Assembly (NCBI GenBank): GCA_022822365.1
Contig: JAJEBV010000001.1
Location: 1-64,000, forward strand
DNA from: Thermoanaerobaculia bacterium
GTDB lineage: Bacteria > Acidobacteriota > Thermoanaerobaculia > Multivoradales > Multivoraceae
Length of the DNA stretch: 64,000 nucleotides
Reading direction: 5' to 3'
In this document: piece by piece, positions 31,269 through 32,058 of the stretch
Position numbering within the stretch: position 1 is the first letter of the stretch
How the letters are laid out: each line of letters begins with the position of its first letter
Made by a program: the position numbers and the translations under genes
Notes under the pieces: generated by a model
What the model was told of the DNA's origin: nothing
Databases searched by the model: none
Seen by the model: the letters and a program-made list of their open reading frames with translations, nothing else

Positions 31269-31892
31269 CTAGGCGTCGACCGCGTCCGCGGCCTCTTCGG
31301 CAGCCTCCTCCGCCGCTTCCTCGGCGTGCTCGACCGCCTCCTCGACCGTGTCGCTGACGAGATCGGCGAAGCCGCTCCAGTCGGCGTTCTCGACGCTGGC
31401 CGCGATCAGTTCGGCCAGTTCGCCCATCTGCTCACCCAGCGCGCCGAGCGCTTCGCCGAACATCTCCCAGTCGGCGCCCTCCATGGCTTCCCCGAGAGAG
31501 GTGCCGAAGCGTTCGCCGAACTCTTCCCAGAACTCTTCGAAGCGGTCCCAGTCGACCTCGCCGTCAGGGTGCTCCATGTCCTCGAACTGTTCCGCCCAGG
31601 CGTCCCACTCCTCCTCGTCGAAGGCCTGCTCGAACGACGCGGCGAACTGCTCGCCCCATTCCTCCCAGCGCCTGCCGAACTCTTCCCAGTCCTGGCCGTG
31701 GGCTTCCCAGTCGGCTTCCTCGAAGCTGCGGCCGAAGCGCTCGCCCCACTCCTCCCAGCGCTGGCCGAGCTCTTCCCAGCGCTCGTCGTGACTCGACTCG
31801 GCGTTCTCCTGGGACAGGAGCGCTCCGGGAACGAGGGCGATCAGAAAGGCGAACGCCAGCGTCGCCCAGCGATGGTGGTGGAGGTTCTTCAT
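31269..31892 (-). CDS. Secreted hyperacidic protein with Trp/Glu-rich 30-residue repeats
   Basis: A 207-residue protein of unrecognised family. An N-terminal signal peptide (residues about 1-28, ending GALLSQ) precedes a region with no Cys and no Lys. I count 61 Asp/Glu, 8 Arg and 13 Trp in residues 29-207. Four repeats of exactly 30 residues are readable: 39-68, 69-98, then after a 16-residue insert (99-114) 115-144 and 145-174. The consensus is WEEFG.RWEEWGE.F..SFE with a late Trp (62, 96 shifted, 142, 172). The tail (184-207) is an Ala/Glu helix. The repeats predict amphipathic helices with an aromatic face, perhaps membrane- or cation-binding. The ribosome-binding site AGGGAG sits 7 nt before the ATG. 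It is a single gene, divergent from murA. Confidence 0.8.
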   Translation of the reverse strand: MKNLHHHRWATLAFAFLIALVPGALLSQENAESSHDERWEELGQRWEEWGERFGRSFEEADWEAHGQDWEEFGRRWEEWGEQFAASFEQAFDEEEWDAWAEQFEDMEHPDGEVDWDRFEEFWEEFGERFGTSLGEAMEGADWEMFGEALGALGEQMGELAELIAASVENADWSGFADLVSDTVEEAVEHAEEAAEEAAEEAADAVDA

Positions 31893-32058
31893 GTTCGGTC
31901 TCCCTGGCTGTCGGAGGGGCAGGCGACCTGACTGGGCCGCACCTCTCTAACAACGTCGCGGCGTCGCGGGAGTTTCACGAGCGGGCATATCGGAAGAGTG
32001 AGCACTTTCCTTGGTGTTCCTGTGGTCAACTAGCCGCGCGATGGAGACAGCCGGACAC

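Follow-up and report, generated by a model that had tools for sequence, protein, structure and literature searches.

The window, the whole stretch of 64,000 nucleotides analysed here, contains on its minus strand a gene for an acidic protein with Trp/Glu repeats, whose family is real, conserved and undescribed in light of the sequence searches and comparisons. The protein is very probably a genuine, exported member of an ECF regulon, and we lean, if only slightly, towards a reading in which it would be a small exported effector of envelope stress, controlled by an ECF factor and binding amphipathic clients. Sequence comparison supports the gene and the selection acting on it, the amphipathicity of its product, the promoter, the occurrence of the same promoter before a DUF4097 gene, and the fusion of related repeats to PDZ domains. 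An undescribed and strongly conserved family thereby gains a testable place in an envelope-stress regulon of uncultured Acidobacteriota. Neither the link with PDZ proteins nor the ECF promoter was visible to the author of the preliminary description of this DNA, and both go beyond it.

Reading frame, conservation and genomic context

The features of the locus, in window coordinates, are as follows:

31269–31892, minus strand: gene for the probably secreted acidic Trp/Glu-repeat protein (stop codon to 31269; coding 31272–31892), recognised by its open frame and ribosome-binding site
31900–31905, minus strand: ribosome-binding site AGGGAG, kept as A(A/G)GGAG in orthologues
31950–31977, minus strand: predicted ECF-sigma promoter TGAAAC-N16-CGTTGT, conserved in 19 of 19 aligned orthologues
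31809–31892, minus strand: putative signal peptide, residues 1–28, MKNLHHHRWATLAFAFLIALVPGALLSQ, read by eye
31713–31778, minus strand: repeat unit 1, residues 39–60, WEELGQRWEEWGERFGRSFEEA, 71% amino acid identity to unit 2
31623–31688, minus strand: repeat unit 2, residues 69–90, WEEFGRRWEEWGEQFAASFEQA, from self-comparison
31482–31550, minus strand: repeat unit 3, residues 115–137, WDRFEEFWEEFGERFGTSLGEAM, 52% amino acid identity to unit 1
31389–31472, minus strand: degenerate fourth unit, residues 141–168, DWEMFGEALGALGEQMGELAELIAASVE, with an ADW motif before it
31272–31382, minus strand: C-terminal helix, residues 171–207, with an ADW motif followed by an Ala/Glu-rich tail

The frame starts at an ATG codon and encodes 207 amino acids plus a stop codon (protein P0002); a few bases 5′ of the ATG, many relatives have AAGGAG instead of AGGGAG. 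Orthologues were present in 20 of 21 congeneric genomes, the sole genome without one being an 86% complete assembly. Orthologue comparison gave a dN/dS of 0.114 for the core of the gene, variable sites were distributed 29/10/82 over the three codon positions, and Trp was invariant at most sites. The alternative that the frame is a spurious ORF in GC-rich DNA could appeal to the long overlapping ORFs that are also found on the opposite strand. However, purifying selection operates in this frame, with changes falling mostly on third positions, the ribosome-binding site and promoter are conserved, and the tail tolerates indels yet stays in frame, which together make the probability of a spurious ORF practically negligible. 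Judged by the selection analysis, which has in practice already refuted that alternative, the gene is real. The preliminary description had tied doubts about the frame to a lack of purifying selection in relatives, and those doubts fall away because the selection found is strong.

In one orthologue (locus L020 of genome G015), the frame is shifted over approximately residues 28–60, within repeat 1, and then returns; the DNA still encodes a normal repeat in the other frame, as could result from an assembly error or from real compensated indels.

The gene is neighboured by a divergent murA and a MaoC-like gene, then by alpha/beta hydrolase and helicase genes, an arrangement retained in nearly all loci to the extent that contigs reach. 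Although murA is adjacent, a functional link with it was not retained, because the two genes are divergent and distant relatives sit in other neighbourhoods. A second strongly conserved block is located in the divergent intergenic region near the start of murA (~32020–32042, minus strand, AGTTGACCACAGGAAC) and is possibly the murA promoter or an operator. Scanning around the Trp/Glu gene revealed no sigma-70 promoter and, 3′ of it, no terminator-like site, and a tblastn search of plasmid records returned no match.

Composition, repeats and predicted helices

After position 28, the window protein comprises 179 residues, including 61 Asp and Glu, 8 Lys and Arg (all of them Arg), 4 His and 13 Trp, with no Lys and no Cys; the acidic, basic, Trp, Cys and Lys counts are exactly those given previously. 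Freedom from Lys is true of the window protein but is not a family trait, since several congeners have Lys inside their repeats (for example, HGKHWEEVGKRWEEWG). Residues 1–28 display a basic n-region, a hydrophobic core and small residues before the end, and were judged by eye to be a putative signal peptide, the alternative being an uncleaved anchor. The earlier statement that the protein is secreted can be upheld as probable on this basis.

Self-comparison revealed 71% identity between residues 39–59 and 69–89, and 52% between residues 38–60 and 114–136, against 12% expected by chance in each case. The best self-match at offsets of 15–80 exceeded those of all 3000 composition-preserving shuffles. 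The preliminary description had proposed four repeats of 30 residues. Its first three units are real, but the fourth was degenerate and mis-phased: as first delimited (145–174), it has only 17% identity to unit 3, whereas a better register at 141/142–170/171 (142–171 fits) gives 27–40% identity and is Trp-poor (residues 61–90 versus 141–170, 40% amino acid identity). The protein therefore has three clear units and one degenerate unit rather than four equal ones. In relatives, the basic unit is 11 residues long. The Ala/Glu-rich C-terminal tail differs in length among orthologues.

AlphaFold predicted six helices (residues 37–59, 66–87, 93–106, 115–137, 142–166 and 175–206), albeit with low confidence (pLDDT of 49.6 in both of two runs), so that the structure prediction suggested earlier yielded the helices but not a confident model. 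The helices are short and are broken by conserved ADW and PDG motifs. In helical-moment analysis, hydrophobic and acidic residues pointed, on average, in directions ~165–195 degrees apart in each of the six predicted helices, and moments were greater than those of shuffled sequences in five of the six (p ≤ 0.024); the C-terminal helix (residues 171–207) was amphipathic with p < 0.001. An aromatic face opposite an acidic one, as originally proposed, is thus confirmed, and the opposition of hydrophobic and acidic directions holds regardless of AlphaFold confidence.

Family and distant relatives

Sequence searches of Pfam, NCBIfam and PDB, the last also with a profile, returned no credible family for the window protein, in agreement with the earlier remark that no described family has this pattern. 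A profile search of 297 genomes across the phylum matched nothing beyond the window's genus and one relative from the same family, which makes the Trp/Glu family look lineage-restricted, apart from a short stretch of a DUF4097 protein in Chloroflexota. In that protein (L043, 4476–5924), the embedded Trp/Glu segment WEEYGKQWEEWGEQFGEQ may be homologous or convergent, and the C-terminal end displays a weak SHOCT-like match.

More distant relatives, found within the same order, are secreted and carry repeats 11 residues long (e.g. GERWAEWGEQF), and a DW motif opens the helices that follow. PDZ-less representatives occur in G025 (185 aa) and G040 (166 aa). A PDZ-type region followed by Trp/Glu repeats is found in G021, G022, G023 and G056, and Pfam identified PDZ in the two proteins tested (G021 and G023, E-values of 1e-15 to 1e-17). 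The window protein itself has no PDZ domain according to Pfam, this domain occurring in relatives only. Pairwise E-values to P0002 were 4e-15 (G023), 2e-8 (G040) and 3e-6 (G025), which composition may inflate, and a profile search reached E = 5e-37 for the Trp/Glu repeats and DW-motif helices with P0002 among the profile's own rows. Because low-complexity acidic/Trp helices can converge, the distant relationships (28–38% identity) may partly reflect composition.

Several observations were made around these relatives. In three sister genera (L112, L113 and L117 of G022, G021 and G023, respectively), the PDZ + Trp/Glu gene adjoins a large gene whose product has glycosyl hydrolase family 3 and beta-lactamase domains, as determined by Pfam on L112 only. 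A gene of the Toastrack-clan DUF2807 (L117, 995–1750, E = 5.2e-27) is positioned directly upstream of the PDZ + Trp/Glu gene in G023. Genome G038 encodes a secreted acidic protein (L116, 4317–4868) with repeats such as EVDFAEISAEVQAELA, possibly a further-diverged cousin; its gene is near sigma-factor-like and putative anti-sigma genes and has GAAAC-N17-CGT upstream. Searching the literature on Candidatus Multivorans gave no result.

ECF-type promoter and probable regulon

Hallmarks of ECF promoters are AAC at −35 and CGT at −10 (PMC8103513), and the consensus for Bacillus subtilis SigW is TGAAACN16,17CGTA (PMC2375139). Both hallmarks, at a spacing of 16–17 nt, are present upstream of the window gene. 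Alignment of the upstream regions of 19 orthologues revealed that TGAAAC-N16-CGTTGT is kept within variable flanking DNA, the −35 element being TGAAAC, perhaps plus C or T, and no other exact match to the site occurs in the 4.38-Mb genome. A divergent orthologue in G008 has TGAAAC-N16-CGTCGA. The looser pattern G[AG]AAC-N16/17-CGT was found up to 200 nt upstream in 8 out of 8 distinct genes compared, versus 7 out of 104 control ORFs. This pattern was drawn up once the sites had been inspected, the position of the signal peptide guided the choice of some start codons, and the weakly related G038 gene is among the eight; the shuffle probability obtained for this count is accordingly not to be read literally. 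On the strength of these sequence patterns, the Trp/Glu protein is a probable member of an ECF regulon.

Across 21 genomes, one to five strict sites (TGAAACY-N15/16-CGTYNT) were found per genome, against six sites in all 21 genomes together for the reversed control. Recurrent strict sites within the genus precede two genes, the Trp/Glu gene and a gene for a secreted DUF4097 (Toastrack) protein (PF13349, E = 8.7e-19); a few further strict sites are found repeatedly, in part of the genomes, with no recognised gene downstream. Genes downstream of strict sites were checked directly in some loci, and other assignments were made by matching spacer sequence. A regulon that includes both genes is well supported at the sequence level.

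The ECF factor encoded on contig C47 appears to be the best candidate for the regulator. In 21 of 21 genomes its own gene is preceded by a matching autoregulatory promoter, GGAAC-N16-CGTT(AC/GT), and it is followed by genes for a single-TM protein, putatively the anti-sigma factor by position, and for a secreted PDZ protein whose tail is a coiled coil. A second ECF factor, encoded on C45 and with a related promoter, was also considered; C47 was preferred as the candidate, given that the −10 element of C45 (CGTCTT) fits worse.

Proposed function and alternatives

In the reading we favour, envelope stress would act through an ECF factor, C47 being the best candidate, to drive the TGAAAC-N16-CGTTGT promoter, and the secreted Toastrack (DUF4097) protein would be driven by the same promoter type. 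The Trp/Glu protein would be exported, probably to the periplasm, and some six short helices would make it up, arranged as a string or a bundle, each with Trp, Phe and Leu on one side and Glu and Asp on the other. The aromatic faces may bind amphipathic clients, and the acidic faces may hold the protein in solution and draw positive charge, so that the protein would buffer stress or hand clients to its PDZ and Toastrack partners. We infer export, the acting ECF factor, the inducing signal and client binding; the candidate clients, membrane-active (stress) peptides or unfolded envelope proteins, are a matter of inference entirely. Taken separately, client binding as the function of the protein is a tentative possibility.

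The same opposed faces could serve a structural or oligomerising role, in which the protein would self-assemble through its aromatic faces into a bundle or a fibre, bracing the envelope or keeping partners together, with no soluble client. The 11-residue (hendecad) period of the relatives, typical of coiled coils, is consistent with this, as are a weak Spectrin match in PDB (E = 0.053) and the plain coiled-coil tail that PDZ proteins of the genus have at the matching position. However, conserved ADW and PDG breaks interrupt the short helices, and the high net negative charge disfavours dense self-packing; we regard such a role as unlikely. It appears quite unlikely that the protein acts as an exchangeable apolipoprotein does, attaching to lipid or membrane surfaces and stabilising the stressed membrane. 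Its amphipathic helices with a Trp/Phe face would suit this, and 3 out of 18 aligned members showed weak PF01442 matches (best E-value of 0.00096), but P0002 has no PF01442 match (E ≤ 10), the interface is almost devoid of Lys and Arg, and anionic bacterial lipids would repel an acidic protein. The apolipoprotein comparison made in the preliminary description is accordingly weak, with the interfacial Lys/Arg of class A helices absent.

The acidic content (61 of 179 residues) would also fit a buffer for Ca2+ or other metals, the aromatics then serving folding only. Against this, Pfam recognised no EF-hand or other metal motif, Cys is absent and His scarce, and Trp is as strongly conserved as the acidic residues, which renders a cation buffer improbable.

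Comparison with known systems

Spy and CpxP, periplasmic stress chaperones, are small helical exported proteins under envelope-stress control, as is proposed for the protein described here, but searches of Pfam and NCBIfam (E ≤ 10) did not place the window protein among them. Relatives of the window protein share an 11-residue amphipathic helical period with apolipoproteins A1/A4/E (PF01442); unlike those, the window protein has an acidic-only polar face and Trp instead of a Leu-rich face, and where class A helices have basic interface residues, it has 8 Arg and 0 Lys in 179 residues. The undescribed PDZ + Trp/Glu 11-mer proteins (L021, L023, L053 and L055) resemble it in repeat type, DW motif, export signal and ECF-type promoter, and differ in having a PDZ domain together with C-terminal repeats.

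Toastrack unifies DUF2154, DUF4097 and DUF2807; envelope-stress systems recurrently have Toastrack proteins as partners, and the domain is predicted to be intracellular (PMC11237479). The protein co-regulated with the Trp/Glu protein belongs to Toastrack (PF13349), and a DUF2807 gene is found beside the G023 PDZ fusion, but the DUF4097 protein appears to carry a signal peptide. The main text of the survey mentions neither PDZ nor tryptophan, and the association of amphipathic Trp/Glu repeats with both PDZ and Toastrack domains suggests a recurrent module of which it makes no mention.

LiaX combines a beta DUF4097 part with another that is mostly helical and has been reported to bind antimicrobials (PMC10269926). 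The likeness to LiaX/YvlB of Firmicutes consists in a helical protein that has one ECF promoter type in common with a secreted DUF4097 protein, and in the Trp/Glu repeats found inside the Chloroflexota DUF4097 protein. In contrast to LiaX/YvlB, there are two separate secreted proteins here, control would be by ECF rather than LiaFSR, and the helical parts have no demonstrated sequence relation. Membership of LiaX is not claimed, because Pfam finds no DUF4097 (PF13349) in the window protein, this domain being encoded by the separate co-promoted gene. The broader idea that envelope stress in Acidobacteriota is met by a LiaX-like module split in two, with a new secreted Trp/Glu hendecad family as the half that binds clients, working with Toastrack and an ECF-linked PDZ protein, we consider rather doubtful. 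By analogy, LiaX would be the nearest functional precedent for the Trp/Glu protein.
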